NCBI GenBank assembly: GCA_902609095.1
Contig: CACLQQ010000006.1
Span: 1 to 60,822, forward strand
DNA length: 60,822 bases
Source: an uncultured Bacteroidota bacterium
Lineage (GTDB): Bacteria; Bacteroidota; Bacteroidia; Chitinophagales; Saprospiraceae
Direction of reading: 5' to 3'
Position numbers and translations under genes: made by a program. The notes beneath the pieces are model-generated. The model was not told the origin of the DNA, ran no database searches, and saw nothing but the letters and a program-made list of their open reading frames with translations. Positions 350 to 47,493 of the stretch are shown piece by piece (the first letter of the stretch is position 1; each line of letters starts with the position of its first letter).

Positions 350-2113
350 CTACGCTGTTACCTCAGCTCCAAATTGCATAATATATAATTCTCTATATCG
401 ACCTTCATCTAATAGTACCAATTCGTCATGATGACCATGCTCTACTACCTCGCCATGATCCATGACTAAAATAGCATCTGCATGCCTAATCGTAGATAAT
501 CTATGAGCGATTATTATTGATGTGCGTTTCTGAATGAGCTTTTCAATCGCATACTGGATCACTTCTTCTGTTTCTGTATCTATTGATGATGTAGCCTCAT
601 CAAGAATCAAAATATCAGGATCAAATACTAATGCTCTGACAAAAGAAATCAACTGCCTTTGACCTACCGATAGATTTGCTCCTCGTTCCATTACCATATA
701 ATTATACCCATCAACAAGTTTCTGGATATAATCATGAGCTCCTATGGCTTTAGAAGCCTCAAGCACTGTTTCCATTGAAATTTCAGGATCGTTGAGGGTT
801 ATATTTTCGAATACGCTACCATAAAAAAGGAAAACATCTTGTAGAACTATTGCCATTCTCGCCCTAAGCTGATGAAGCTTATAAGTTTTTATCTCTTTAC
901 CATCAATTATTATATTACCATTATCGATATCATAGAATCGGGTTAATAGATTAATCAATGTACTCTTCCCTGAACCTGTGCTACCAACTATAGCCAAGGT
1001 CTTGCCAGCCCCAAGCTTAAAACTAACATCATAAATCACCTGATTCTCCCCATCATAAGCGAAGTTGACATTCCTAAACTCTATATCACCCTTAATCCTG
1101 CTTACTTCTATATAACCGTTGTCTGATATCTGCTCCCTTTTATCAAGTACATCAAATACTCGATCGGCAGCAACCATTCCCATTTGCAAGGTATTGAACT
1201 TGTCAGCTAACATTCTTACTGGCCTAAATAACAAATCTATATACCATGGGAAAGCTAATAAGGCTCCTAATGAAACACTATCACTAATCACATATCTCGC
1301 ACCCAAATAAACTAAAAACGCCAGAGCCAGATACTTTATAAATTCTACAGTTGGAAAAAATATCGCATAGTAAGTAATAGCATCCAAGTTGGCTTGGGTA
1401 TATTTCCCATTAATCTTCTTGAACTTATCCATCTCTTGTTGCTCTGCATTGAAAATCTGAATAATATTCATCCCTGTAATCCTTTCTTGTAGAAAGGCAT
1501 TCATATTGGATAACTGTGTTCTCACTTTCTCAAAAGCTAGTTTCACCTTCTCTTTAAATATGTAAGTAGCGATCATTAATAGCGGCAAAGTTCCCAGTAC
1601 TAGTAAGGTGAGTGGCCAGCTCGTAGCAAACATGATCCCTATCACGGCAAAAATTCCTAAAAGGTCAGCAACCATTGTAATGATCCCCTGAGTAAATACC
1701 GTATTGATCGTTTCAATATCATTGATCGTTCTGGTAGTTACTCTGCCGATAGGTGTCTGATCAAAAAACCTTAATCGCAAAGAAAGTATATGGCGAAAAA
1801 CATCAATTCTCAAATTTCGAACTACGTATTGTCCTAATAATGAGCTATAGTATATCATGAAATATCTCAGGACAGATGTAACGACTATTACTACTACGAA
1901 TACCACTGCAATCTTATAAAGTCCAGGCATATCCTCCAATAGAATATAGTCATCGACCATGACCGAAACCAAATAAGGTCTTAGCATAGAGACAGGAGCT
2001 AATATTACTGCCAGAATGATTGTCGACAGAAAAAGAAATCTATACGGACTAGCAAGTCCAACAATTCTGCTGAATAACCCTAAATCAAACTTTTTCTTCT
2101 TTTTATCTGCCAC
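350..2113 (-). CDS. ABC transporter, fused permease and ATPase (MsbA-like exporter)
   Basis: A half-transporter that would dimerise in the inner membrane and use ATP to export a lipid, drug or peptide. The first ~320 residues hold about six membrane segments (ABC_membrane type), after a short lysine-rich start (MADKKKKK). The ATPase follows: Walker A GSTGSGKST near residue 380, signature LSVGQ near 481, Walker B ILILDEATS near 504 and the H-loop IIAHRLS near 538. The 587-residue length is normal for MsbA/LmrA-like proteins and all catalytic motifs are present. It stands alone, followed by unassigned sequence and preceded by a broken FMN reductase gene, so context gives no substrate. Family call is firm; substrate unknown. 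Confidence 0.95.
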   Translation of the reverse strand: MADKKKKKFDLGLFSRIVGLASPYRFLFLSTIILAVILAPVSMLRPYLVSVMVDDYILLEDMPGLYKIAVVFVVVIVVTSVLRYFMIYYSSLLGQYVVRNLRIDVFRHILSLRLRFFDQTPIGRVTTRTINDIETINTVFTQGIITMVADLLGIFAVIGIMFATSWPLTLLVLGTLPLLMIATYIFKEKVKLAFEKVRTQLSNMNAFLQERITGMNIIQIFNAEQQEMDKFKKINGKYTQANLDAITYYAIFFPTVEFIKYLALAFLVYLGARYVISDSVSLGALLAFPWYIDLLFRPVRMLADKFNTLQMGMVAADRVFDVLDKREQISDNGYIEVSRIKGDIEFRNVNFAYDGENQVIYDVSFKLGAGKTLAIVGSTGSGKSTLINLLTRFYDIDNGNIIIDGKEIKTYKLHQLRARMAIVLQDVFLFYGSVFENITLNDPEISMETVLEASKAIGAHDYIQKLVDGYNYMVMERGANLSVGQRQLISFVRALVFDPDILILDEATSSIDTETEEVIQYAIEKLIQKRTSIIIAHRLSTIRHADAILVMDHGEVVEHGHHDELVLLDEGRYRELYIMQFGAEVTA

Positions 2114-2141: not shown

Positions 2142-2686
2142 TTATGACTTTATTATTTCCTGTAGTTTTTCAATTTTACTTTTCAACAATGCTTTTAATT
2201 CTGGATTAGTCATTCCCCCTTCCAAAAAAATTTGATAAAATCTGGATATTGATAAAGAGTCCACTATGTGAGCTCCCGTACATGGAAAAGAAGTTAGCGC
2301 TGATTGTAGTGAGTAGCACCACCTCTTCCGCCAGGCGATGTAGATAATAATAACATGGGTTTAGATTCCCATAACTTACCCTCTATCCTACTAATCCAAT
2401 CCATGAGATTCTTGAATGCTGCTGTATAACTTCCGTTATGTTCAGCAAAAGAAATGATAATAGCATTAGACTCCCTGATCAGTTTTTTGAACTCAACAGC
2501 ATGAGGATGAATGCCACTATCATTCTCTCTGTATATTGAATAAATTGACATATCAAAATAATTTAGATCAATGAAATTGACATTAACATCAACTAACTGA
2601 TTTGCGGCATACCTAGCTAATTGAGCATTTATTGAGTTCCTACTTAAGCTTGCTCCGAAGGTTAGTATTGAATCGTTCATTAGCAA
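2142..2686 (-). pseudogene. NADPH-dependent FMN reductase family gene, frameshifted
   Basis: The first 130 codons match the flavodoxin-like NADPH-dependent FMN reductases: a start with GASLSRNS for the phosphate loop, and LLLSTSPGGRGGAT near the C-terminal third. After GGAT the frame runs into HYNQR and a stop at 2294. The missing C-terminus continues in another frame (SLQSALTSFP, then GAHIV, then TNPELK) to a stop at 2142. One lost base near 2308 explains it; restoring it gives a protein of about 181 residues, the usual family size. The enzyme would reduce FMN or quinones with NADPH. No other defect is visible, so a base-calling error remains possible, but the neighbouring genes are also broken. 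Confidence 0.85.
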
Positions 2687-2756
2687 TGATTTACAAACGA
2701 ACGCATCGAATGCTACAAAGTTGAATTATTAGAAATATAGTCTCATAATTGCATCT

Positions 2757-3362
2757 ATGTTTAATGCAATAGTACTCGCTGCAGGAAGATCAGAGAGGAT
2801 GGGCGTCAGAAATAAGTTAACCCTAAATCTGAACGAGGGTACTATCATATCAACCGTCATAAAGCAACTTAAAAAAAGTCAGGTTGGAAAAATAATCGTA
2901 GTTACAGGTCATGAACATAAAGATATAATTGAAGCTATAAAAGGAATTCCTGATTTGCAGATAGTACATAATGCAAAATATAAAAAAGGTCAAATGACCA
3001 GTATCAAAGCAGGATTGAGCGGCATAGATACACGTTGTGAAGGTTTCTTAGTATGCTTAGGAGATATGCCTTCAATAACAGGAACAGAATATGATCTGAT
3101 CATGAATGAATACAGATCTATTAACTCTAATGTGTCACACCCAATAACAAGACCAGTATATAAAGACACCATAGGGCACCCTGTGATATTTCATTCAATT
3201 TATAAAAATGAGATTCTCAAAGCTTGGCACAACGCTGATTGTAGACAAGTCATACAACAACACAAAAAGAACTATCATCCTGTACCAGTCAGTTCAGTAA
3301 ATTTCTTTATGGACATAGACAATGAGGAGGAATATAATAGTTTGATTAAATGCACATCTTGA
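2757..3362 (+). CDS. MobA-like NTP transferase (molybdenum cofactor nucleotidyltransferase type)
   Basis: A Rossmann-type nucleotidyltransferase. The N-terminal nucleotide-binding motif LAAGRSERMG spans residues 7-16, with a lysine at about 20, and the metal-binding GDMP motif is near residue 102. GHPVIF in the C-terminal half is also typical of MocA/MobA-like proteins, which transfer CMP or GMP to molybdopterin. At 201 residues it has the normal length and looks intact, which is striking between broken genes on both sides. No molybdoenzyme or XdhC-type partner lies in the window, so the cofactor role is by family only. It is divergent from the FMN reductase pseudogene and 21 bp before the haem lipoprotein pseudogene. 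Confidence 0.8.
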   Translation: MFNAIVLAAGRSERMGVRNKLTLNLNEGTIISTVIKQLKKSQVGKIIVVTGHEHKDIIEAIKGIPDLQIVHNAKYKKGQMTSIKAGLSGIDTRCEGFLVCLGDMPSITGTEYDLIMNEYRSINSNVSHPITRPVYKDTIGHPVIFHSIYKNEILKAWHNADCRQVIQQHKKNYHPVPVSSVNFFMDIDNEEEYNSLIKCTS

Positions 3363-3383
3363 TACATCCTATATAATTAGCTA

Positions 3384-3766
3384 ATGATTAAAAGAGTATT
3401 ACTATTTAGCATTTTTTCTCTCATATTGGTATCATGTGCATCCGACGTATTAGAATCAAATAATACTGATTGTGGTGGAGAAGTATCATACGATAATGGC
3501 ATTAAGGAGATTATCGATGAAACCTGCGCATATAGCGGCTGTCATAACGGAGCAGGAAGTGCTCCCGGTGATTATCGCTCATTTGAAGGAATGCAGCGAT
3601 TTATATATAATGGAAGTTTGGAGAGCGTGTAATAGATGTCAAAGAAAATCCTACAAGAGGGATGCCACCTGACAGGATCATTTATCCTGAGACTCTACAA
3701 GATGATTTAACTGAAACGCAACTTGAACTGATTACCTGTTGGATTCAAAACAACTTTCCTGAATAA
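3384..3766 (+). pseudogene. Haem c-type lipoprotein gene, frameshifted
   Basis: It begins with a lipoprotein signal (hydrophobic stretch, then LVSCAS as lipobox) and then carries CAYSGCH, a CxxxCH-like haem attachment motif, in a region that resembles the small cytochrome-like lipoproteins of Bacteroidota. The frame stops at 3632 after GSLESV. The rest continues in another frame (VIDVKENPTRGMPP, later ELITCWI) to a stop at 3766. One lost base near 3626 would restore a protein of about 127 residues. The methionine in RGMPP could be the distal haem ligand. Starts 21 bp after the MobA-like gene, so the two may have been co-transcribed. Function beyond haem binding is unknown. Confidence 0.75.
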
Positions 3767-3789
3767 TTTTATTTTAATGGGATATAAGT

Positions 3790-4498
3790 ATATTAGATAA
3801 GGTAGCTTATGTAACTGGAGGCTCTAAGGGTATGGATTGGGTATTGCAGAAGCCCTGGCAGCACAAGAAGTCAATGTTTCTATCACTGGACGAAACAAGT
3901 CTGCAGTTGAAGCCTCAGCAACCGCAATTAATAAGAAATATCCAGATTCATGCATGGGTATTGTTGCGGACGTCCGTAATCCTGATGGGCAGGTTAATGC
4001 TATACAGAATACTATTGCGACGTGGGGGAAAGTAGATATCTGAATAGCCAATGCAGGTCTTGGACATTTTGATTCAATTGAGAATCTATCAATATAACAG
4101 TTGAATAAAGTCATTGATATTAATTTGACAGGCACATTTCATACTGTCAAGGCAAGTTTAGAAGCATTAAAAGAAACTCAAGGATATTTCATAATCATAG
4201 CAAGTTTGGCTGACTCGAATTTCTTTGCCAATGGATCAGCATATAATGCTAGTAAATATGGTGTAGTTGGATTCACTCAAGCTGTTATGTAGGATCTCAG
4301 AAAACATGGAATAAAGGTCACCACTATAATGCTGGGATCTTTGGCAACATACCTTAACAATCATAGGCCTAATGATCAGGATTCATGGAAGATCCAACCT
4401 GAAGACTTAGGTCAAATGGTGGTCGATTTACTGAAGATGCACCCGAGAACATTACCGAGTAAAATAGAGGTAAGGCCTTCAATCCACCTAAAAAGTAG
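3790..4498 (+). pseudogene. Short-chain dehydrogenase/reductase gene, heavily decayed
   Basis: Pieces in sequence order rebuild one SDR of about 235 residues. They are TGGSKG then GLGIAEAL (the glycine-rich NAD(P) loop, split by a lost base near 3833), NAGLGHFD, SAYNASKYG (the YxxxK catalytic pair) and the ending EVRPS..PPKK with a stop at 4498, reached after a second lost base near 4482. In-frame stops sit at 4041 (TGA), 4095 (TAA) and 4290 (TAG); the TAG stands where a Gln codon (one C-to-T change) would fit. The start is probably ATA at 3790, which may be a mutated ATG. With two frameshifts, three stops and no start codon, this is clearly dead. Confidence 0.9.
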
Positions 4499-4535
4499 TC
4501 CTCCCCAAGAGACCAATTTCATTATCTCACAGAAT

Positions 4536-5049
4536 TTGTGCATTAGAATTCTCTCAATCATATGTCTGATACCCTTCTGTAATCCTAATGAAATGATATA
4601 TCAAAAAACGAAAGCAGATGGGTCAGTAAACTATGATTATGGTCATGTCTGAAGTGTCCCTGATATGAATAGGACGAGAGACACCAATATGGTATATAGA
4701 GTGGTCTTGGATATACACAATTCCCCAAAGTCCAATGAAGAGTTAAATCCCAGATCGACACCTTAACACGTTTCATAAATATGTTAGAGCAGGAGTCCCG
4801 ATAATGAATTTACAAGTAGTTGGAGTATTTCATAATAAAGCGACTAAGGATCTACTGCAACCAAAAGAATATGAGAGTAGACATGGACATGTTAATAAGA
4901 TCTATGAACTGATTACACAACTATCAGATACTGGAGTAGGACTTATATTTTGTGGACGATCATAGTATTTTAGAGATATCCCCTAAGGACTCTTTCATCC
5001 CCAAACTCAGTTGAGCCTATCAGCGATGACAACAATTATGGAACTTTAA
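4536..5049 (+). pseudogene. DsrE-family protein gene, decayed
   Basis: The fragments resemble secreted DsrE/DsrF-like proteins of Bacteroidota. They are a hydrophobic leader (RILSIICLIPFC), then YDYGHV, VYRVVLDIHNSPKSNEELNP, the conserved RAGVP, LQVVGVFHNKATKDLL, the GLIFCGRS cysteine motif and LSAMTTIM. Defects are TGA at 4650, lost bases near 4753 and 4783, TAG at 4963 and TAA at 4984. The conserved Cys of the FCG motif is still encoded. Family members have roles in sulfur trafficking or are uncharacterised; this copy cannot make a full product. The exact 3' end is uncertain (5049 to about 5095), and it faces the CDGSH pseudogene tail to tail. Confidence 0.75.
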
Positions 5050-5078
5050 TAGCAATTAGCTTAAACCCTAATCAACTT

Positions 5079-5329
5079 TTAGACTTTCGAATTATCAGAC
5101 TTGTGAGATCCATCACAGAATTGTGGACGTTCTGATTACTTACAAGTGCACATAGGGTACATCTTAGTTTTTTCTACTGTTATTATAATAGGATCGAAAT
5201 CTGATCCTTTATGAGCCCCGTCGCACAAGGGTTGATTCGTATTCCCCCACAACTGCACCAGAAGTATTTCTTTCCAGCTTCTAATGCTAATCTAATAGGT
5301 ACAGTACCTCCTACTTTTGGATTAGCCAT
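5079..5329 (-). pseudogene. CDGSH-type iron-sulfur domain protein gene, decayed
   Basis: Read on the minus strand, the start MANPKVGGTVPI leads to YFWCSCG. One lost base near 5225 must then be restored to reach TNQPLCDGAHKGSDF, the first CDGSH cluster motif (CxC...CDGxH). The second motif follows as CTCK, an in-frame TAA, then QFCDGSH. With both defects repaired the product is 83 residues with two CDGSH motifs, the usual length for small bacterial mitoNEET-like proteins. Such proteins bind a [2Fe-2S] cluster through three Cys and one His. It was found only by reading through breaks, since no single frame is long. Its tail abuts or slightly overlaps the DsrE remnant. Confidence 0.85.
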
Positions 5330-5425
5330 ATTCAAGTTAGTTTAGGTTTTGATTTGATTAGATGATGGCCTAAGCGTATCATAGCAATGCGGTTCATCAA
5401 AAGCAAATAAAAACTACGTTTCCAG

Positions 5426-6116
5426 ATGTCTGATATCAAATCAATAAAGTCTTGGGCAGAGGAAGATAGACCAAGAGAAAAACTATCCCAAAAAGGGAAA
5501 GAGAGTCTATCAAATGCAGAATTGTTAGCAATAATTATGAGCTCAGGATCGAAAGACGAGTCAGCCGTGAGTTTAGCTAAACGAATCTTGACACAAGCAG
5601 AATCACTTAATAATTTGGGAAGGCAAAGTTTAGAGTTCTTCATGAGTTTCAAAGGAATCGGTGAAGCTAAAGCAATTACCATTGCTGCCGCACTGGAATT
5701 AGGGAGACGACGACAAGCAGAACCTTCCAAAGAAAAAAAGTCGATAACAAGTAGCGCAGATGCCTACGAAGTCATCGCACATCGATTGGCTGATTTGAAT
5801 AATGAAGAGTTTTGGGTGGTGCTACTGAATAATAAAAATCACATCATTTCTCAAGAGCGTATATTCACCGGCGGTGTTAGTGCAATAGTTGTTGATGCTA
5901 AACTTGTTTTCAAATCAGCATTATCAAAGCTCGCAAGTCGAATTATTCTGTATCACAATCACCCAATTGGCAGTATAAAACCCAGTCAACAGGATATATC
6001 ACTTACGAAAAAATTGAGTCAAGCCGGTGGGTTTATTAGACATCAGCGTAGTTGATCATATCATCATTGGAGAAAAAGGGTATTATAGCTTAAAAGATGA
6101 AGATCTACTGATCTAA
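5426..6116 (+). pseudogene. radC: RadC family protein (JAB/MPN domain), frameshifted near the C-terminus
   Basis: RadC has an N-terminal helix-hairpin-helix part (FKGIGEAKA, residues ~73-81) and a C-terminal JAB/MPN metalloprotease-like domain. HNHP at about residue 177, with the following PSQQD, provides the metal ligands, and these are present. The frame then runs off after QAGG into FIRHQRS and a stop at 6055. The expected ending (DISVVDHIIIGEKGYYSL) is in another frame to a stop at 6116. Removing one T from the run near 6029 restores a 229-residue protein. The 209-residue shortened product still has its metal site but lacks the last strands, so partial function cannot be ruled out. The repaired end overlaps the convergent glycosyltransferase by 12 bp. 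Confidence 0.85.
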
Positions 6117-7193
6117 TTCGTGGTAGAGCTCTATATATTGATCGATAGTCTCCTGCAATAAGAATTGCTTCATTTCAGTATTGTTCCACTCTTCTTTCAG
6201 TGCGCTTTGCATAGCCTTTGCTAAACCTGCAGGAGTATGTGAGTCCATAGTAATAAACTGACCACTGACAACCTCACTTAATGCACCTCGCCCTGAACTG
6301 ACAATCGGTGTCCCTATTGCCATTGTTTCCACTGCAGCATAACAGAAACCTTCACTGTAAGATGGAATTAAAATACAGTGAGCAGATTTAATACTCTTCT
6401 TAAGTTCACTAAAGGGTTTACTTGATTCGATAGTCAGTAGGTCCTTTGAAAGATTTAGTTCATTGATCAAAGTCGTAACCTTCTCAAGCAATGGTTCTTC
6501 TGGCAAGATCAATTTAACCCTAAAGTTGATAGAAGTCTTGATAAGAGGAATTGCACTGAGTAAAAGATCTATCCCTTTAGAATATCCCACCCGTCCGAAA
6601 AATAAGAACTGAAATTCCTCAGGATTTTTTGATCCTTCTAATCCTTCAAAGTCGTTATAATCTATACCATTATAAATTCGAATAAGCTTAGAATCAGGAA
6701 CACCAACCTCCAACAATGCAAACTTGGTATAATCTGATACCGCAATGAACCTATGAAAAGGAAGTGACCCCAACAACCTTTCAAATGCAGAATTGAGATA
6801 ACGGCTCAGTGTATTCAGCCAAGGAAGTTCAAACCATAGATTACCCCAATACTCATGAAATGTAATAATGACATTTTTCCGTCTGAGAAGTCCAACAATC
6901 CAAGCTGGTAAGCCAGCATTATAAGATGTTGTATGTATCACTTTGACCCCTGAAGCTTGCCATAAACCTGGTATCCATGCTAAAAATGTGAATATATATC
7001 TATTGAAAAATCTATATCTAATCACTTCTACGCCTTCTATGATTTCTCTAAATTTTAAACTCGAATCGTACTTATTAGTCAGTACTGTTACTTTATACCC
7101 CCTTTTGACTAATTGTCCAGCCAAAGACTTGAATAAGGTCTCTACACCTCCAACATGAGGCTCGTAGTATTCAAGAAGAAATAAGACTTTCAT
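6105..7193 (-). CDS. Glycosyltransferase family 4
   Basis: A GT-B fold retaining glycosyltransferase, acting in the cytoplasm at the membrane on polysaccharide or glycolipid. The N-terminal acceptor domain starts MKVLFLLEYYEPHVGGVETL. The C-terminal domain has the donor-site pattern EGFCYAAVE (E-x7-E) near residue 282, followed by GTPIVSS. Its 362 residues are typical and nothing is missing. A DUF2304 membrane protein lies 21 bp upstream on the same strand, a pairing often seen with polysaccharide or lipid glycosyltransferases, so the two probably form one transcript. The sugar and acceptor cannot be told from sequence. Confidence 0.93.
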   Translation of the reverse strand: MKVLFLLEYYEPHVGGVETLFKSLAGQLVKRGYKVTVLTNKYDSSLKFREIIEGVEVIRYRFFNRYIFTFLAWIPGLWQASGVKVIHTTSYNAGLPAWIVGLLRRKNVIITFHEYWGNLWFELPWLNTLSRYLNSAFERLLGSLPFHRFIAVSDYTKFALLEVGVPDSKLIRIYNGIDYNDFEGLEGSKNPEEFQFLFFGRVGYSKGIDLLLSAIPLIKTSINFRVKLILPEEPLLEKVTTLINELNLSKDLLTIESSKPFSELKKSIKSAHCILIPSYSEGFCYAAVETMAIGTPIVSSGRGALSEVVSGQFITMDSHTPAGLAKAMQSALKEEWNNTEMKQFLLQETIDQYIELYHELDQ

Positions 7194-13252: not shown

Positions 13253-14373
13253 TCGAAGAACAGCTTAGAACTTATATGATCTGACAGATACCAATTCTGA
13301 GTAGTAATCCTTACTGAATCAGCTATATCAAGAACCACCCCTTTTGAGGTCATTTCGTTCGTTAGTTTATAGAAATGGTTGACTATATCTGTAGAAAACG
13401 AATTTATTCTTGATTTAGCAACTCCTTTCGCTTGACGAAGGCCTAACATTATAGTTTCATTATAAACATCGGCTTCGGATAGTTCTTCTTTCTCCTGTTT
13501 TAAGCTGCTCTCTTCCATGTGCTTGATGTATTGCATATTATTACTACAGTTCCAATATCTCACACCATCAAAGTAAGAATGTGCCCCTGGGCCAATACCT
13601 AAGTAATCACCATGAGCCCAATAATTAGTATTGTGTCGAGAATGCAAGCCTGGTTTACAGAAATTAGAAATTTCATAATGATCATAACCACCAGCACTAA
13701 GTAGGTCATGACCTAACATGAACTGATCAAATTGTATGTTTTCTTTCAGGGATTGAATCTTACCTTGCTCTTGCCACTTGTGAAAAGCCGTTTGTTCTTC
13801 TATCGTCAGGTTATAACAGGAGATATGCTCTGGAGCATACGAGACTATTTGTTCCAAGTTTGCTTTCCACTGATCCATATCGCTATCAACTAAGCCAAAC
13901 ATTAAATCGACACATAAGCTCTCTATTCCTACTGCTCTAATATGTTCAATAGCCATCCTGCCTTGATCAGCATTATGAGCACGATTCATAAATGATAGGT
14001 CATGATCAAAAAAAGATTGTATACCCATACTGACCCTATTCACCCCAGCCATTACTATTTCTTCGCAATACTTTAGGGTTATATCTTCAGGATTTACCTC
14101 CAGAGTTATCTCGGCATCAGAGTTGATATCGTAGCGTTGATTTATGAGTACCAAGAATCTTCTGATATTTGAGGGCTCCAGAACAGAGGGTGTCCCTCCT
14201 CCAAAATAAATAGAATCAATTTGATTGACTATCGGACGATTTGCCGCCTGTTTCGTTTCAAGGAGCATTGCCTCGATCATGCGATCAATATAAGTCAGAT
14301 TAGTCGAGAAGTGAAAATTGCAATAGTGACAAGCTTTACGACAGAAAGGTATGTGCAAATAAATTCCCGCCAT
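13249..14373 (-). CDS. hemW: Radical SAM haem chaperone HemW
   Basis: A radical SAM protein that binds haem and inserts it into respiratory enzymes; long misnamed an oxygen-independent coproporphyrinogen oxidase. The cluster motif CRKACHYC (C11, C15, C18) lies directly after IYLHIPF, and GGGTPS follows. The CxxxCxxC with C-x2-C plus N-terminal HIPFC is typical of HemW rather than HemN. The 374-residue length is normal. It is separated from the O-methyltransferase gene upstream by one base, so they are very likely co-transcribed. Confidence 0.93.
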   Translation of the reverse strand: MAGIYLHIPFCRKACHYCNFHFSTNLTYIDRMIEAMLLETKQAANRPIVNQIDSIYFGGGTPSVLEPSNIRRFLVLINQRYDINSDAEITLEVNPEDITLKYCEEIVMAGVNRVSMGIQSFFDHDLSFMNRAHNADQGRMAIEHIRAVGIESLCVDLMFGLVDSDMDQWKANLEQIVSYAPEHISCYNLTIEEQTAFHKWQEQGKIQSLKENIQFDQFMLGHDLLSAGGYDHYEISNFCKPGLHSRHNTNYWAHGDYLGIGPGAHSYFDGVRYWNCSNNMQYIKHMEESSLKQEKEELSEADVYNETIMLGLRQAKGVAKSRINSFSTDIVNHFYKLTNEMTSKGVVLDIADSVRITTQNWYLSDHISSKLFFD

Positions 14374-14374
14374 C

Positions 14375-15010
14375 CTATTTAACCCTAATCATTGAAAGAC
14401 CATCTCGATATGGGAGTAATACAACTTCTACTCTTGAATCTTTCGCCACAGTTCTGTTAAACTCATCTAATGCTAATGCCATATTCGACTTTTTCTCATG
14501 AACCACCTCCCCTTTCCATAGAACATTATCTGCAATTATAAGTCCACCACGACACATCTTGGTTAGCATCAACTCATAGTAATCCATATACTCCCTCTTA
14601 CCAGCGTCTATGAATAACATATCAACAGGTCCTCTTATTTGATCTATGGTATTCAGCGCTGTATCATTTATCAGTTCCACTTTATGAGCAATTGGTTTAA
14701 TCATCATGTTAATAAAATCAATTCTTAGAGCATCCTTTTCAACAGTCAGAATCTTACCATCAGTGGCTAGGCCTTCTGCCAAGCAGTATGTACCATAGCC
14801 TGTAAAAGTTCCCAACTCAACTATTAAGCTCGGCCGCATTATCTTACTGAGCATACTTAATAATCTCCCTTGAATATGGTCAGTAGCATCGAATGGCTTC
14901 AATGTGTTGAGAAATGTACCCCTAGCAATATCATATATCTCTTCGTTCGCTAAGGAACACATCTGCTCTGCGTAATGCCTAATCTTAGGATCATCATTGA
15001 TTTTGGACAT
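14375..15010 (-). CDS. Class I SAM-dependent O-methyltransferase (CmoM/catechol type)
   Basis: A soluble methyltransferase of the COG4122 type, related to catechol and caffeoyl-CoA O-methyltransferases. The SAM motif is ELGTFTGYGT (residues 65-74 from the chosen start), followed by an acidic residue at the end of strand 2 (VEKD) and the metal-site pattern FIDAGKREYMDYYE. I chose the ATG at 15010 (MSKINDDPKIRHYAEQ), giving 211 residues, because homologous proteins begin there; an upstream in-frame ATG at 15073 adds 21 unrelated residues. It lies one base before hemW. Substrate unknown. Confidence 0.9.
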   Translation of the reverse strand: MSKINDDPKIRHYAEQMCSLANEEIYDIARGTFLNTLKPFDATDHIQGRLLSMLSKIMRPSLIVELGTFTGYGTYCLAEGLATDGKILTVEKDALRIDFINMMIKPIAHKVELINDTALNTIDQIRGPVDMLFIDAGKREYMDYYELMLTKMCRGGLIIADNVLWKGEVVHEKKSNMALALDEFNRTVAKDSRVEVVLLPYRDGLSMIRVK

Positions 15011-15146
15011 AGAAGTTCGCTTTCGGTACGAATATTGGCCTTTCAGCATTAATAATTGGTTTTTTTGGGTCAATAAATTTGATCCTGTTGTTCAAACTTG
15101 AAGACAGGATTTTTTTATATCTCTTCACTGATCGTAACTTACTGCA

Positions 15147-15803
15147 ATGGATTTGGCGAAACGACAGAAGAAAGAAAAGAATATTATTAAGGCGGCTGAG
15201 CAAATTTTTGCAGAATCAGGTTTCTATAACGCCAAAATGGATGACATCGCACAGAGTGCGGGAATTACTAAGGTTACACTATACAGTTATTTCCAGAGTA
15301 AGGAGAATCTATATCTCGCCATCATTTATAAAGGGTTTCAGGTTCTCACTGAGATATTTTATGATGTCATAAACGATAATCGATGTAATACCGGTTATGA
15401 TTCAACCATGGCAATCTTCAATTCATTCTATGAGTTTTGTGAATCCAACTTCCTCTATTCAGAGGCCATTTTAGATTATTTTTCAATCATTCGCAATACG
15501 GTCAGAACTGATAATGCTAACCAGGATATAAGAGAGAGTATCTTTTTCTTGAAATTGCAAGACATTCAGAATATTCCATTAAAGCTAACGGCCAAAGAAA
15601 TCATAAGAGGAAAACAGGATGGCTCTATAACTGCGAATATAGATCCTATGCTCAGCACAATCCAAGGATGGACCATGGTAGTTGGATATATCAAACTTCT
15701 TATTGCTTCAGGAACTAAAGGTTTAACCTTGATGAGTGTAGATCTTAAGTCTCTCAAGACCTTAAGTCTTGATATGGCTAAAAATTCATTAAAATCTAAT
15801 TAA
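15147..15803 (+). CDS. TetR/AcrR family regulator
   Basis: A one-component repressor. The N-terminal DNA-binding domain (residues ~8-55) shows AEQIFAESGFYNAKMDDIAQSAGITKVTLYSYF in pieces typical of TetR, with the recognition helix near residues 38-48. The C-terminal ligand-binding part has no recognisable signature. It lies 112 bp before the acyl-CoA dehydrogenase gene on the same strand, so regulation of fatty acid degradation is plausible, as for FadR-like TetR proteins. That link is inference from position. Length 218 residues is usual. Confidence 0.9.
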   Translation: MDLAKRQKKEKNIIKAAEQIFAESGFYNAKMDDIAQSAGITKVTLYSYFQSKENLYLAIIYKGFQVLTEIFYDVINDNRCNTGYDSTMAIFNSFYEFCESNFLYSEAILDYFSIIRNTVRTDNANQDIRESIFFLKLQDIQNIPLKLTAKEIIRGKQDGSITANIDPMLSTIQGWTMVVGYIKLLIASGTKGLTLMSVDLKSLKTLSLDMAKNSLKSN

Positions 15804-15915
15804 TAGAAACCTTGGCAAACGTCAATTTTTGGCATAACTGTTATCTTATTGGCGTGCATGACAATTGAAATTGAACTAATTTTAAATTTTTTAGAAAAAA
15901 TAAAATGTATAAATT

Positions 15916-17730
15916 ATGTCTAATTATGTGAGCGTAGATCATCTGAAATTTCTATTAGATGAAGTACACAACTTAGAAGAAGTATTAGGGTTAGATAGAT
16001 TCTCCGACTATGATATGGAGGGTATTAACATACTATTGGATTCATCCAAAGAGCTATCAGACAAAGAGCTTTTCCCATATTTTACCGAGATGGACAGAGT
16101 AGGTGCTAAATATGAGAATGGTACCATCACTTGTCATCCTCAAATCGAGAATGTTATGAAGATGTATGGTGAGAATGGATTTATATGCCCACACTTCGAT
16201 TATGAAGAAGGTGGATCTCAGATGCCTCATATGGCAAGCTTAGCTGTAGGATTTATCAGCACTGCTGCCAATAACACAGCAGTAGGTTATCCCGGACTTA
16301 CAGCAGGAGCAGCAGGACTAATCAGATCATATGCTTCAAAGGAGTTATTTGATACATATGTGCCCAAAATGATGGCAGGAGAATGGGGTGGAACAATGGC
16401 ACTTACAGAACCTCATGCTGGTAGTTCACTATCTGATATTGTGACGTCAGCTAGGTTGATTGAAGATGGTTCATATAACATAGAGGGTCATAAAATTTTC
16501 ATTTCTGCAGGTGATCACCAATGTTGTGAGAATATAGTTCATCTAACATTAGCAAGAATTGAAGGAGCCCCTGCAGGCACCAAAGGGATATCACTTTTTG
16601 TTGTACCAAAATACATGCCTACAGAAGATGGCTTAATCGATAACGACGTATTTACAGCTGGAGAGTTTGAAAAAATGGGTCAGCGAGGTTATGTTACTAC
16701 TCACTTAGTATTCGGTGATAAACAAAATTGTAAAGGATTCTTAGTTGGTGAAGCTAATCGGGGTCTTAAGTATATGTTCCAAATGATGAATGGGGCAAGG
16801 TTAGAAGTAGGATTGACTGCTGCAGCTATTGCTTCAGCAGCCTATCACCAATCGCTACAGTATGCTAAAGAAAGATCACAAGGTAGAAAGCTTGACGGTT
16901 CGGGAGGCAAGAATATCAATGCATCACAAACTCTAATCATCAATCATCCTGATGTAAGAAGGATGCTACTATTACAAAAATCAGTTGTAGAAGGCTGCGC
17001 CAGTTTGCTCATCTTATGTGGTAAGTACTTAGATATGTCTCATTATGCTGCGGATGAAACTACGAAAGAAAAATATCATGACTTGTTAGAGTTACTAACT
17101 CCGATAGCTAAGACCTATCCTTCAGAGATGGGTAGAATCTCTACTTCTAATGGCATGCAGGTATTAGGAGGCTATGGTTTTACCACAGATTTTCCATTAG
17201 AACAATTATATAGAGACATCAGGATCACTGCCATCTACGAAGGAACAACTGGAATCCAGTCTTTGGACTTGTTAGGCCGCAAGGTCCTTATGAAGAATGG
17301 AGCTGCCCTAATGAGCCTAATGCAAGAAATTAATAATGACATTGCCCTTGCCGAAACTTATGAGGACCTAAAACCATACACCGACAAATTAAAATCAGCT
17401 TTACAGCAAACTCAGAAAGTATTAGTTCACTTGAGTCAATTTGCATTAGCCGGTAAGTTCGAAAGGTTCTTAGCCGATGCAACTATATTCATGGAGATGA
17501 CCAGTACGGTCATCATAGCTTGGCAATGGATCACCATGGCAAGCAATGCTAAACAAGCGTTGGTGACTGGACAACTCAATCAATCGCAACAGTTCTATGA
17601 AGCTCAGATTCATACTATGAAATTTTATTTTAAATATGAATTGCCGAAGATTAAGGGTCATATTGAAACTTTATTATCAGATGAAGTTTTAACTATTGCA
17701 GAAGAAAAAGCAGTTGAGGCCTTTTCTTAA
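15916..17730 (+). CDS. Acyl-CoA dehydrogenase, long (about 600 residue) type
   Basis: A flavoenzyme that introduces the 2,3 double bond in acyl-CoA in beta-oxidation. The FAD/substrate motif MALTEPHAGSS is in the middle domain, and IYEGTTGIQSLDLLGRK is the C-terminal ACAD signature around the catalytic region. The 604 residues include an extra C-terminal helical domain, as in AcdA/FadE-related bacterial enzymes. An SCP2 gene follows 28 bp later and a TetR gene precedes it, suggesting a small lipid-catabolism transcription unit. Chain-length specificity cannot be read from the sequence. Confidence 0.94.
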   Translation: MSNYVSVDHLKFLLDEVHNLEEVLGLDRFSDYDMEGINILLDSSKELSDKELFPYFTEMDRVGAKYENGTITCHPQIENVMKMYGENGFICPHFDYEEGGSQMPHMASLAVGFISTAANNTAVGYPGLTAGAAGLIRSYASKELFDTYVPKMMAGEWGGTMALTEPHAGSSLSDIVTSARLIEDGSYNIEGHKIFISAGDHQCCENIVHLTLARIEGAPAGTKGISLFVVPKYMPTEDGLIDNDVFTAGEFEKMGQRGYVTTHLVFGDKQNCKGFLVGEANRGLKYMFQMMNGARLEVGLTAAAIASAAYHQSLQYAKERSQGRKLDGSGGKNINASQTLIINHPDVRRMLLLQKSVVEGCASLLILCGKYLDMSHYAADETTKEKYHDLLELLTPIAKTYPSEMGRISTSNGMQVLGGYGFTTDFPLEQLYRDIRITAIYEGTTGIQSLDLLGRKVLMKNGAALMSLMQEINNDIALAETYEDLKPYTDKLKSALQQTQKVLVHLSQFALAGKFERFLADATIFMEMTSTVIIAWQWITMASNAKQALVTGQLNQSQQFYEAQIHTMKFYFKYELPKIKGHIETLLSDEVLTIAEEKAVEAFS

Positions 17731-17758
17731 TAATTAACTCATAAAAACAATTTAAAAA

Positions 17759-18055
17759 ATGGACGCTACTGCTTTATTAGCACAGTTAAACGATCAAGCA
17801 CAAAAAACAGATCCTATTGGTGCTACTATTAAGTTCGAGGTTGATGATCATATAGTTTTCATCGATGGCACAGGCGACTCAAACGTTGTAAGTCAAACAA
17901 ACGATGACGCGGATTGTACGATTACTACAAGCTTAGATACCCTGATGAAATTACAGAGTGGTGATCTTAACCCAATGATGGCAGTTATGGGAGGAAAGAT
18001 AAAAATTAAAGGTGATATGGGGCTTGCTATGAAGCTTCAATCTTTATTGGGATAA
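17759..18055 (+). CDS. SCP2 sterol-binding domain protein
   Basis: A 98-residue protein consisting almost entirely of an SCP2 lipid-binding fold, with the typical DADCTITTSLDTLMKL and GKIKIKGDMGLAMKLQ segments. SCP2 proteins bind fatty acyl-CoA and similar lipids. Its place 28 bp after the acyl-CoA dehydrogenase suggests it carries that enzyme's substrate or product; this is inference. A strong terminator follows 36 bp after the stop. Confidence 0.92.
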   Translation: MDATALLAQLNDQAQKTDPIGATIKFEVDDHIVFIDGTGDSNVVSQTNDDADCTITTSLDTLMKLQSGDLNPMMAVMGGKIKIKGDMGLAMKLQSLLG

Positions 18056-18090
18056 TACTGTTGCAGTTTCAGCTGTATTTACAATGCATT

Positions 18091-18119
18091 AAGGGGTTCA
18101 ATTTTGGTCCCCTTTTTTT
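18091..18119 (+). terminator. Rho-independent terminator after the SCP2 gene
   Basis: AAGGGG (18091-18096) pairs with CCCCTT (18109-18114) around a 12-base loop and runs straight into a T-tract. It works in the plus direction only and ends the acyl-CoA dehydrogenase-SCP2 transcript. Confidence 0.8.
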
Positions 18120-18122
18120 ATA

Positions 18123-18428
18123 TCAATTCGCGCAATAAAAGTTGCTAAATAATTCTATTGCGGTGACACTGTCAGAATCAACCAATTCATTAATTCTTGG
18201 ACTTATCTGCTTGAGTGCAGATTTGATAGATTCAGACGATCCGCTGACTATAACTTCTGGTTTATTCAGTAATAGTTTAACTAATAATCGCTCTAATTCA
18301 TCATTGATTTCATCAGGCGTTGTGTTCTCGTCTTTCGCTAGCAATTCATATAACCAACTATAGTTCGCACTATAGAAGTTATCCCAATTCATCAAACTTT
18401 GTCCAATAGCCTCAGTTTGTTTTAGCAT
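18123..18428 (-). CDS. Small hypothetical protein
   Basis: I do not recognise this 101-residue protein. It looks soluble and helical, starts MLKQTEAIGQSLMNW, is rich in acidic residues, and has no signal peptide, membrane segment or metal motif. Codon content resembles its neighbours. It ends 4 bp from the plus-strand terminator of the SCP2 gene and lies about 113 bp from the alanine dehydrogenase stop, on the same strand as that gene. It could be spurious, but the absence of a competing reading frame and the lone position favour a real gene. Confidence 0.5.
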   Translation of the reverse strand: MLKQTEAIGQSLMNWDNFYSANYSWLYELLAKDENTTPDEINDELERLLVKLLLNKPEVIVSGSSESIKSALKQISPRINELVDSDSVTAIELFSNFYCAN

Positions 18429-18541
18429 AACCTTGGATTTCCTAATTATGTAACCCCCAAACCTATTTTCTGCTTGACATACAGTGCTATGATCGGGTTG
18501 TCACCTAACCAAAACAAAAATCTTACCAATTCATAATTAGA

Positions 18542-19768
18542 CTAACGAGAAGAGGTCAATAAGAGCTCCAATGCAGTATATTTCAATTCAAAACTTTTAG
18601 CTAAATATTCACTCGTAATATGTCCATCATAAGCATACACCCCACGAATTAAGCCAAGGTTTCCGTATAGTAGCCTGTTAATTTTAGCTGGAGCAGCTAA
18701 TCTCAATATCGCCGGAGTAATAACATTACTGATCGCTAAAGAACTGGTTCTTGGCACCTTAGATGCCATATTTGGCACACAATAGTGAATTACATCATGC
18801 TTAAGAAATGTAGGATTTTTATGCGTAGTCATATGGGACGTTTCGATACATCCACCTTGATCTATACTTACATCAATAATGACAGCCCCTTTCTTCATAT
18901 TACTGACCATCTCCTCCGTTACGAGAACTGGCGCTCTTCCACTCTTGCCATGCATAGCGCTTAAAACTACGTCAGCACTAGTTAACTGATATGCCAAATA
19001 TTCAGGGTTGATAGACGAAGTATGTAGCTGCCGTCCTACCTTATCCTGCAATCGGATTATCTTGTTGATATCATTATCAAAAACTCGTACGGAGGCTCCA
19101 AGACCTATAGCAGTCTGGGCAGCATGCTGACCTACAACTCCTGCACCCAAAATCAAAACTTTAGATGGAGGCACGCCAGAAACCCCTCCCAATAATACAC
19201 CTCGACCCCCTCCATAGACACTTAGTAATTCTGATGCAGTTTGGATTGCTATACGCCCTGCCATCTCTCCCATCATTCTGAGTACAGGAAAAGTACCATC
19301 ACTGTTCTGGAGATAATCCATAGCAATAGCCACAACCCTCTTTTCTTTAAGGCATTCTAAGTAGGACTTATCAATTAATGGTAAAGGAAGCATGGTCAGA
19401 ACTATTTGCCCGCCACTCAATTGAGTCATTTCATCCTTATTAAGCGGGGACGACTTAATAACAATCTCACAGTTCAGTATTTTATTCTTGCCATTTACTA
19501 TCTCGGCCCCTGCAGATGCATAATTATTATCGCTGTAACGAGCCATTTTCCCGGCTCCTGCCTCAACCATTACTTTATGACCATACCCAACAATAGTTCT
19601 TATTGAATAAGGAACTAATGCAACTCTATTCTCATGATCAAAATCCTCTTTTAACACACCAATTGTAGCTCCTTCATTCTTTCCTAATACCTCTAGAGTC
19701 TCAACCTGAGTTTCATACTGTCCTTGTGTAAAAAAAGTCGAGAACTTATATTTTTCTCCTCTTGGCAT
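18542..19768 (-). CDS. ald: Alanine dehydrogenase
   Basis: NAD-dependent L-alanine dehydrogenase, converting alanine to pyruvate and ammonia. The N-terminal domain carries the substrate part (EDFDHENRVALVP, and IVIKSSPL with its Lys). The dinucleotide site is LILGAGVVGQHAA, and DVSIDQGGCIETS is the diagnostic C-terminal motif of AlaDH/PNT proteins. The 408 residues include about 25 extra N-terminal residues compared with well-studied enzymes. It follows tsaE by one base, an arrangement I know from other Bacteroidota. It could be called a PNT-like protein, but it lacks the membrane part of transhydrogenase. Confidence 0.9.
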   Translation of the reverse strand: MPRGEKYKFSTFFTQGQYETQVETLEVLGKNEGATIGVLKEDFDHENRVALVPYSIRTIVGYGHKVMVEAGAGKMARYSDNNYASAGAEIVNGKNKILNCEIVIKSSPLNKDEMTQLSGGQIVLTMLPLPLIDKSYLECLKEKRVVAIAMDYLQNSDGTFPVLRMMGEMAGRIAIQTASELLSVYGGGRGVLLGGVSGVPPSKVLILGAGVVGQHAAQTAIGLGASVRVFDNDINKIIRLQDKVGRQLHTSSINPEYLAYQLTSADVVLSAMHGKSGRAPVLVTEEMVSNMKKGAVIIDVSIDQGGCIETSHMTTHKNPTFLKHDVIHYCVPNMASKVPRTSSLAISNVITPAILRLAAPAKINRLLYGNLGLIRGVYAYDGHITSEYLAKSFELKYTALELLLTSSR

Positions 19769-19769
19769 A

Positions 19770-20186
19770 CTAGCTTATTTTCACAATCCGCTCCTTTTCT
19801 TCATTCATTGAAATACTGATGAAAATACAGCTATCTTTTAAAATTGGAAACGCCAGTTCAGGCCACTCAATAATGCATAGTTGACCAGAATAAATATATT
19901 CCTCAAACCCGATATCCAACAGGTCATCTATTGACTCTAATCTGTATAAGTCCATATGATAAACCATGCCACGCTTAGACATATACCCATTAACTATTGA
20001 GAAAGTGGGACTATTGACTAAATCGTCCGAACCTAAATACTTCATTAATGCCTTTACAAAGGTTGTTTTACCAACTCCCAAATCTCCTTGTAGCGCAACT
20101 ATAGAGTGATTAGGCTGAGCCAATCTATTATCTAAATGAATTACAATCTTAGACCATTCTTGTTCATTTTTCAATCTATATGTCAT
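19770..20186 (-). CDS. tsaE: tRNA threonylcarbamoyladenosine biosynthesis ATPase TsaE
   Basis: The ATPase that works with TsaB and TsaD to make t6A at position 37 of ANN-decoding tRNAs. Walker A is GDLGVGKTTF (from residue 34), and NSPTFSIVNGY and MDLYRLES are family signatures. At 138 residues it is full length. It is followed after one base by alanine dehydrogenase, so they share a transcript. Essential in many bacteria; no sign of damage. Confidence 0.94.
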   Translation of the reverse strand: MTYRLKNEQEWSKIVIHLDNRLAQPNHSIVALQGDLGVGKTTFVKALMKYLGSDDLVNSPTFSIVNGYMSKRGMVYHMDLYRLESIDDLLDIGFEEYIYSGQLCIIEWPELAFPILKDSCIFISISMNEEKERIVKIS

Positions 20187-29280: not shown

Positions 29281-29819
29281 ATGAAAGGAATCGTATTCAC
29301 AGAGTTTCTGGAAATGGTTGAAAAAAATTCGGCTACAATATGGTAGACCTAATCATAGAAACCTCTGAATTGCCTTCCGGAGGTGCATACACAGCAGTCG
29401 GGACGTATGATTATGGAGAAATGCTGCAGCTCATCACTAACTTAACTAAAAATACCAACATTTCTATCCCAGATCTTTTAAAGGCATATGGGAAATATAA
29501 TTTCGTTACTTTTTTAAAGTCCTATCAAGGATTCTTTGAACAAACCGAGAGTTCATTTGAATTCTTAGAATCAATAGATAAGAATATACATGTAGAGGTC
29601 AAGAAGCTCTATCCTGATGCTGAATTACCTTCATTTCAAACTAATAGAGTGAATGATAATACATTAGAAATGGTCAATACCTCTTCACGAAAGTTGGGTC
29701 ACCTTGCAATCGGTTTAATTGAGAAAACTATGGAATACTATGGTGATGAAATGACTATGGATACAGAATCCTTAAGGGATGATGGAAGTCAAATCAAATT
29801 TACAATCACTACATCTTAA
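29281..29819 (+). pseudogene. H-NOX haem NO/O2-binding sensor gene, frameshifted
   Basis: H-NOX proteins bind haem and sense nitric oxide, signalling to a neighbouring kinase or cyclase. The start MKGIVFTEFLEMVEK is followed by an A7 tract (29321-29327) where one A is missing; with 8 A the frame joins VDLIIETSELPSGGAYTAVG and continues to the stop, giving 179 residues, the family size. The proximal histidine is kept in DKNIHVEVKKLYPDAELP. The haem-propionate clamp YxSxR reads NTSSR, so its tyrosine is lost. The stop overlaps the start of the kinase remnant, the usual H-NOX pair. Confidence 0.85.
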
Positions 29820-30323
29820 GCAGGATGTGGATCAACCTGCAAATATTTTAGCCTTAGAGTGCAGATTAAAACGTGAAATTAACGCACGTCAATCTGCCGA
29901 AAGTATTCTTGAGCAAAAGGCCTTAGAACTGTATGTAGCCAACCAGAACCTTATCGCCCTTAATAAAGACTTCGAATCCAAAGTAGCAATACGTACAAAA
30001 GCCCTTAAAATAAGTGAGGAGATCTTTCGAACTGTTATAGAAACTGCAACAGACGTAACTTTTAATACTGACCAAGGAGGATTTTTCACATTTATGAATC
30101 CATCTGGACTATAAGTTTATGGGTTCCCATTGGTGAAATAATTGGACGACATTTCTCCGATTATATCTACGAAGAGAATAAAGAATACTGTTACAAGTAT
30201 TTTGTTAATTTTCTTAACAGCTCAGACGAAGAAAGCTATTATGAATTTAGAGTTTCGACTAAAGATGGTAAGCTTTTTTGGATAAGACAAAAACACGTAA
30301 ATTATTCATCAATGATGAATTAA
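29782..30323 (+). pseudogene. H-NOX-associated PAS sensor kinase, truncated remnant
   Basis: The first part is a coiled coil (LKREINARQSAESILEQ..., up to ~residue 70) leading into a PAS domain (FRTVIETATDVTFNTD then GFFTFMNPSG). This is the layout of hybrid histidine kinases paired with H-NOX. The frame breaks at 30114. Further PAS sequence continues in another frame (IGEIIGRHFSDYIYEEN, then VSTKDGKLFWIRQ) to 30323, needing two small frameshifts. The HisKA, ATPase and receiver domains expected after this are absent. It ends exactly where the DUF5916 remnant begins on the other strand. Confidence 0.8.
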
Positions 30324-30751
30324 GTTTCACCGTACCATATTGGATTCCAGTTTGAATCCCAAATATTTCCATTCTCTGTAATGAATTCATCATCCTTTAC
30401 ATCTGAAAAAAGGAGTGTGAATGAAAATGCTGTACTCTTATCAAAATAGCTATCCATATGTACCTCGAATTGGTCTCCAGGAAAATTATCCCGTCGACCT
30501 AAACCATTTTCAATTTTACTTACATCTTCATGTTCGCAATGAAAAGCGAGATATAAAAAATCATCATCGTAAAGAAGCTTAAACCTTGTTTGTCGAGTCG
30601 GCTTTTCTCCATTATTAGGATTTTGAACTGTAGAATCCGATTGCCATTCTACCAGATTCCACACCTCATCATTGGTGATACCATCAACGTTTATTTCACT
30701 CTCCAGCAATCTTTGAGTTTGATATTACCTTAGGGTTAACAGTATTAACAT
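30320..30751 (-). pseudogene. DUF5916 / carbohydrate-binding family 9-like protein, N-terminal remnant
   Basis: About 130 residues match the N-terminal CBM9-like domain of the large (~750-850 residue) DUF5916 proteins: VDGITNDEVWN, GEKPTRQTRFKLLYDD and GRRDNFPGDQFEVHMDSY. Everything downstream is gone, and the stop at 30320 lies at the junction with the kinase remnant. At the 5' end, an ATG at 30751 with a short hydrophobic start is followed in frame by a TAA before the homologous part, so the signal peptide is also damaged. DUF5916 proteins are usually outer-membrane-associated in Bacteroidota; their function is not settled. Confidence 0.75.
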
Positions 30752-46455: not shown

Positions 46456-46510
46456 TTCAGATAAACCATTATTATTAAGTGAAGATAGACCATTCTAATA
46501 TCATCATCAT

Positions 46511-47493
46511 ATGGAGCTTAGAACTAAATTAAAAATAGATGTTTCCCCTGATCAGATAGATCATAATACAAGGGTTTGTACTATCGGATCTTGCTTTGCT
46601 TATAACATGAGCCAAAAGTTATCAAAAAATAAGTTTCAGATTTACCATAACCCATTTGGGACTCTATACAACCCTATAAGTATTAGTCAACTTATGTCCT
46701 CTTGTATAAAGCAAAAACTCTCAACAAAAATCTCAACTTAGTTCGGGATGAACGTGCTGTAAACTATCTATATCACTCTGATCTCAATGGTGCTAAAGAG
46801 GCTTAGCTTTAATCGATTCACCAGACCCAAAACAAAGAATTCGCTAATCAACTTAAAAATGCAAAATGGCTGATTATCACCTTAGGAACTTCTATCGTAT
46901 TTAGCCACATCGAACAAGATATTATCGTTGCAAACTGCCATAAACAGCCTGGTCAATTGTTCCATCGAGAAATGTTATCTATTGATAACATAGTCAATAA
47001 GCGAGGCAGTTGCTTCAAGCTTTTATTAAACTATAATCGTAATCTGAAGATTATTTGCACCGTAAGCCCAGTTTGACATATTAGAGATGGCATTGTTCAG
47101 AACAACCTTAGTAAATCACGATTAGTCAATGCATGTCACGAGTTAGCTCAGGGCATTAATGCTGTAGACTACTTTCCATCTTATGAGATTATGATAGACG
47201 AGCTGAGAGACTATTCCTATGATGCTAAGGACCTTATCCACCCTAATGACGTAGCTATCGAGTATATCTATGAGACTTTTAAAAAAAAATATTTTTCATC
47301 AGTCACAACAGATATTTTAACTGAGCTCCGGATCATACAAGATGGCACCAATCATAGACCCTTTAATCCTAATTCGAGTAACCATCTTGTATTCTTGAAT
47401 AGACTGTTCAATGAATGAACAACGCTTCAAGAGAAACATCATATTGACATGAGCACAGAAATTAAAAAAATAAAGACACAGTTAGATATCTAA
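46511..47493 (+). pseudogene. GSCFA-domain protein gene, decayed
   Basis: GSCFA proteins are presumed hydrolases of the GDSL type named for the N-terminal GSCFA motif; here TIGSCFAYNM is intact near residue 26. The frame breaks near 46730 in an A-run; restoring one A joins NLNLVRDERAVNYLYHSD. Then follow TAG and TAA stops near 46804 and 46810, TGA near 47075 (in SPV*HIRDG, where CGA for Arg is expected) and TGA at 47416. Other marks survive: WLIITLGTSIVFSH, CHKQPG, DLIHPND. The rebuilt protein has about 327 residues, the family size. It ends 12 bp inside the convergent amidohydrolase gene. Confidence 0.88.

Follow-up and report, generated by a model that had tools for sequence, protein, structure and literature searches.

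Loss of gene function by small lesions has been described for Candidatus Sodalis pierantonius SOPE (PMC3914690), in which many genes have been inactivated by premature stop codons or small frameshifts in comparison with a close relative having few pseudogenes, and this condition is accompanied by raised protein change, by a massive expansion of insertion sequences and by low synteny with the relative, the host being known. Genome erosion is also described for an endosymbiotic nitrogen-fixing cyanobacterium (PMC2900214) and reductive evolution for Blattabacterium and Walczuchella, Bacteroidota endosymbionts of insects, the latter having a genome of 309 kb (PMC2768785, PMC3971599). The subject of the present analysis is an entire contig of 60,822 nucleotides, hereafter the window, from an uncultured member of the Saprospiraceae (contig C6 of genome G000); near its left end lies a 4-kb block (positions 2142–6116) in which six of seven genes are interrupted. 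Very probably this block consists of genuine pseudogenes and represents one patch of a genome-wide process of pseudogenisation and deletion under relaxed selection in this Saprospiraceae lineage. The process itself is of a known kind, wider and more ordinary than one block, and no report of pseudogenisation or genome reduction in Saprospiraceae was found in searches of an open-licence library, as far as titles and the openings of abstracts show, the papers retrieved including two genome reports of free-living strains.

The well-known reduced genomes of Bacteroidota are those of late-stage insect symbionts, and it is to this late stage, characterized by few pseudogenes, that both Blattabacterium and Walczuchella belong. 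The eroding nitrogen-fixing cyanobacterium is said to have Azolla as its host. G000 has in common with the two insect endosymbionts a reductive evolution within the Bacteroidota (PMC2768785, PMC3971599); it would differ from them by being at an early stage and by its placement in the Saprospiraceae. With the cyanobacterial endosymbiont it shares an erosion taking place outside insects (PMC2900214), the differences being the phylum and the fact that the host is known there.

Two genomes of the same genus as G000 served as references, namely G001 (99% complete) and G002 (97% complete), the assembly of G000 (2.76 Mb in 144 contigs) being itself 58.7% complete and 0.15% contaminated; the relatives drawn from a scan of genome contigs were the best 80 of 567. 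Lesions were mapped by frameshift-aware protein-to-DNA alignment against intact relatives, and the lesion total of the block was obtained with the G002 proteins as references or, for FMN reductase, with the copy of the relative L073. These alignments bear out an earlier note on this DNA, which had called six of the seven genes broken, in that 14 lesions were found, 7 being frameshifts and 7 in-frame stops. A single frameshift affects the FMN reductase pseudogene (2142–2686, minus strand, aligned over 2151–2668) by comparison with the intact L073 copy, and another the lipoprotein pseudogene (3384–3766, plus strand, aligned over 3381–3763); the pseudogene of a short-chain dehydrogenase (SDR; 3787–4484, plus strand) has one frameshift and three in-frame stops, one further shift appearing at its extreme end when G001 is the reference; the DsrE-like pseudogene (4602–5043, plus strand) has two frameshifts and three stops and the CDGSH pseudogene (5100–5329, minus strand) one of each. 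The RadC pseudogene (5426–6116, plus strand, aligned over 5426–6104) has one frameshift and, judging from the alignment, is deprived of its C-terminal end only, as the shift falls at residue 202 of 228. The gene of a MobA-like nucleotidyltransferase of 201 amino acids that lies between them (2757–3362, plus strand, aligned over 2757–3350) is free of lesions, and neither frameshift nor stop occurs in the ABC transporter on the left flank (350–2113, minus strand) or in the glycosyltransferase on the right (6105–7193, minus strand), in keeping with the intact neighbours that had been described on each side.

Fragments of the window reach the Pfam cut-off for NTP_transf_3 (the MobA-like gene), FMN_red (in the open part of the pseudogene), adh_short (SDR) and RadC, the open part of the last containing the UPF0758 N-terminal and JAB domains (PF20582 and PF04002) above the cut-off and the C-terminal end lying in a different frame. 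The DsrE fragment of the window scores 19.7 bits, slightly under the cut-off of 22.7 that is passed by the G002 orthologue (46.8 bits), and zf-CDGSH (PF09360) was found, in two stretches, in the G002 orthologue to which the window copy aligns. The label of haem protein given earlier to the lipoprotein could not be upheld, there being no Pfam match for either the window fragment or two intact orthologues and the motif being C-x4-CH, not CxxCH.

A comparison with close relatives had been proposed as a check, and these possess intact orthologues of the block. The order in G002, every gene being open, is ABC transporter, MobA-like, lipoprotein, SDR, DsrE-like, CDGSH, RadC and glycosyltransferase, and the window is syntenic with this genome along its length. 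The intact orthologues of G001 are divided between two contigs (CDGSH was not looked for there), RadC being on a different contig from the row formed by MobA, lipoprotein, SDR and DsrE-like, which are neighbours on one strand in both genomes. FMN reductase is absent at this locus from G002 and G001, where the gap between the ABC transporter and MobA is 137 and 337 bases, respectively; in L073 the intact FMN reductase adjoins the ABC transporter. The broken genes are still alignable over 81–98% of their relatives' length and have therefore not been deleted yet. The opinion of the earlier note that the decay is recent holds only in part: the excess of amino-acid changes given below implies that these genes ceased to be constrained a good while back, and another part of the window lacks the equivalent of ~14.5 kb of G002.

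As the DNA identity to the relatives is ~64–80% and third positions were judged to be near saturation, the classical synonymous substitution rate (dS) was not used, and the rates were derived from amino-acid changes unique to one genome, counted only in genes of at least 40 codons with orthologues in both G001 and G002 (21 broken and 60 intact). G001 is probably the outgroup, because among intact genes the proportion of changes confined to one genome is highest there (0.18 vs 0.14 and 0.12). The lipoprotein, SDR, DsrE-like and RadC genes, which are the four broken genes of the block that qualify for this count, have 116 changes unique to G000 and 32 unique to G002, compared with 656 and 481 in 25 other intact genes of the window (Fisher p = 7e-7); the excess in the block recalls the raised protein change of SOPE (PMC3914690). 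The corresponding figures for MobA are 21 and 28 (p = 1e-5 with respect to the block and 0.054 with respect to the intact window genes). Thus, the block genes appear to have been drifting whereas MobA has not. The intact genes of G000 also change somewhat faster than those of G002, both in the window (the aforementioned 656:481) and at other loci (954:845), which is the expectation under weaker selection.

Similar signs of decay are found in other contigs of the assembly. Open reading frames (ORFs) of at least 100 amino acids cover 0.82 of 400 kb representing the starts of 20 other contigs, compared with 0.92 in G002 and 0.89 in G001, and 16 runs of at least 1.5 kb having no ORF of 150 amino acids occur in these 400 kb of G000, whereas 180 kb of G002 contain none and 200 kb of G001 contain 2. 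A census of orthologues covered nine loci of G000, i.e., the window, five contigs chosen for low ORF coverage and three near the average, the latter having been selected with their ORF coverage known (0.81–0.84, the mean of the 20 samples being 0.82). Pairs of frameshifts within 20 codons that cancel each other were regarded as alignment slips and removed, and no lesion was counted that fell in the initial 6% or the final 5% of a protein. Of 132 orthologues in the window and the five low-coverage contigs, 34 were called broken (a number from which one was later removed) and 1 partial; of 55 in the three near-average contigs, 9 were broken and 1 was partial, compared with 0/60 in G002 (Fisher p = 4e-4); when the nine loci are pooled, 44/187 orthologues are broken or partial. 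These counts supersede those of a first census, made mostly with distant references at a query coverage of at least 0.5 (13/124 broken, compared with 3/93 in G002 and 2/83 in G001), closer references having been used subsequently. Throughout the assembly, in-frame stops are present in 6/18 SDR matches of G000, in 0/30 of G001 and in 0/27 of G002 (p = 9e-5), the 3 stops of the block SDR entering this count as well. An excess of pseudogenes over the close relatives (10/55 vs 0/60, and 6/18 vs 0/57 for the SDR stops) is one property that G000 shares with SOPE; another is inactivation by small lesions in genes that remain alignable, 56 frameshifts and 77 inner stops having been counted at the nine loci (PMC3914690).

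The broken genes are not scattered at random. Among the 61 window orthologues, called automatically as 51 intact, 9 broken and 1 partial and, upon removal of one wrong call, as 52, 8 and 1 (FMN reductase being outside this count, having no copy at this locus in G001 and G002), 6 adjacencies between broken genes were observed vs 1.2 expected (permutation p = 5e-5); over the nine loci the adjacent broken pairs are 22 vs 14.3 expected (p = 8.5e-4), the broken share ranging by locus from 0/22 to 12/20. The clustering perceived in the earlier note is therefore real, but the block is not the special place that it had seemed to be, representing one sample of an erosion that goes on across the genome. 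Patches of this kind would be expected from shared function or shared operons, and a local loss of one functional module, in which one step was lost and its neighbours decayed together, would explain them while being compatible with erosion of the whole genome. MobA, lipoprotein, SDR and DsrE-like stand indeed side by side on one strand in G002 and G001, the clustering extends over nine loci and, on another contig (L049, contig C17 of G000, 14107–20000), the neighbouring genes of a wax-ester/DGAT-type synthase (WS/DGAT), a glycerol-3-phosphate dehydrogenase and an acyltransferase are all broken. However, MobA, which is the head of the row, is intact and not accelerated, RadC and the MobA row occupy separate contigs in G001 and other contigs decay too, so that module loss is a possible but rather doubtful explanation of the block.

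Several observations weigh against a genome-wide erosion under relaxed selection. Outside the window the broken genes do not differ significantly from the intact ones in rate (624:492 vs 954:845, p = 0.14), the raised protein change described for SOPE thus lacking significance there, and many of these genes may therefore be younger. In the control for the census of the window and the five low-coverage contigs, G002 itself had 3 broken and 3 partial genes of 129, one of the three near-average contigs of G000 (L051) had 0/22 broken, and the ABC ATPase matches show little, those with stops being 2/29 as opposed to 0/48 and 1/47 in the relatives (the last being under the family cut-off). Unlike SOPE, whose insertion sequences are described as massively expanded (PMC3914690), G000 yielded 0 repeat pairs (at least 200 bp, 85% identity) in 461 kb, and assemblies of this kind often break at, or lose, repeats; the same search gave 0 pairs in 393 kb of G002 and 5 in 351 kb of G001. 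Furthermore, in an assembly as incomplete and divided as this one, gene loss is indistinguishable from missing contigs. Finally, homopolymers of at least 6 nucleotides are near 5/56 frameshift sites vs 1% of random sites, a finding that could reflect slippage or some sequencing errors.

The over-representation of long homopolymers and the fragmentary state of the assembly would both favor the alternative that the lesions are uncorrected indels and miscalled bases, the cell itself having unbroken genes. Errors, on the other hand, would not select genes, yet lesions are found in 9/61 window orthologues, with 4 in the SDR and 5 in the DsrE gene; a scatter regardless of gene would be expected of them, but the broken genes are clustered (p = 5e-5 and 8.5e-4); the 77 inner stops are of all three kinds (35 TAA, 22 TAG and 20 TGA), as counted over nine loci; and errors would hardly explain why, at positions identical in the two relatives, amino-acid change is raised for the block but not for MobA. 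Assembly error is accordingly unlikely for the block, whose genes appear to be real pseudogenes, and as an overall account of the lesions it deserves only slight credence. Selective streamlining of the genome of a free-living planktonic bacterium, with which the absence of the G002 segment from the window would agree, is also very improbable in view of an ORF coverage of only 0.82, vs 0.92 and 0.89 in the relatives; streamlined genomes are gene-dense and have few pseudogenes. As to recoding or programmed frameshifting that would keep the broken frames functional, the alignment of the frames across the lesions could be invoked in its favor, but practically no credit can be given to it, since TAA, TAG and TGA occur alike as inner stops while intact genes terminate in all three, the intact orthologues of the relatives do not have the shifts and the broken block genes that were tested evolve fast.

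In a genome-wide erosion under relaxed selection, dispensable genes would escape purifying selection, whereupon small frameshifts and stop codons would build up and the amino-acid sequence would drift, until larger deletions would later remove the decayed genes; constraint would persist on housekeeping genes and, as the MobA-like gene illustrates, on a few of the genes adjoining the decayed ones. The cause would presumably be a weaker selection with a small effective population size, and the trigger may have been a move to a stable, sheltered, probably host-associated life. We infer this sheltered, perhaps host-bound life from the kinds of gene lost and from the comparison with SOPE (PMC3914690); the losses that fit it concern storage lipid synthesis, a mechanosensitive channel, nitric oxide (NO) sensing and redox proteins. 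By this analogy host association may be the setting. The host is known for SOPE, whereas G000 is known from sequence alone; in addition, unlike SOPE, for which low synteny is described, G000 is syntenic with G002 along the window. The chances appear to be even that the organism is a Saprospiraceae species in early host restriction, outside insects, without visible insertion-sequence expansion and with intact, syntenic sisters of the same genus. If this were true, one could read directly in what succession genes die (those for storage, osmotic release, NO sensing and redox proteins) and single constrained genes, like the MobA-like one, would be seen to be spared within dead blocks. A half-eroded genome with two intact relatives of the same genus would reveal the onset of reduction, the first genes to die and whether decay proceeds patchwise; moreover, an assembly of this sort can abound in short ORFs without its sequence necessarily being poor.

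Elsewhere in the window, the H-NOX gene (29281–29819, plus strand) has a frameshift at residue 16 of 182, possibly reflecting instead a shortened N-terminus, and is followed by two remnants, one of a PAS/histidine kinase (29842–30331, plus strand, residues 4–167 of 835, with 2 frameshifts and 1 stop) and one of a CBM9/DUF5916 protein (30323–30724, minus strand, residues 27–161 of 883). The two remnants meet at ~30325, where G002 is longer by ~14.5 kb. A GSCFA-family pseudogene (46508–47478, plus strand) has 1 counted frameshift and 2 stops. A call of broken gene at 15049–15797 was removed before the final counts, as what had been scored as lesions there precedes the start codon of the gene itself (ATG at 15147). 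Searches of the window for Rfam families and tRNAs gave none.

On the other contigs, further broken genes are those of an MscS-type channel, a thioredoxin, an FMN-dependent dehydrogenase (FMN_dh), a MOSC protein and PPK2, the shift of the last sitting close to the end of the gene only, as well as a gene of the glyoxalase superfamily, whose HPPD-type match is weak and under the cut-off. A stretch of 5 kb on contig L043 (C11, 4414–9434) has no ORF of 150 amino acids and no orthologue among the stretches of the relatives that were compared; references were available for 8 genes of L043 only, none of which is broken. The 13 kb of contig L034 (C1, 6638–19998) match pieces spread over ~47 kb of contig C41 of G002 (44832–92292), and by this alignment much G002 content is absent there, through either loss in G000 or gain in G002. 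Lastly, G002 contains many sequences, and G001 several, that match a stretch of ~170 bp on contig L045 (C13, 3926–4097).

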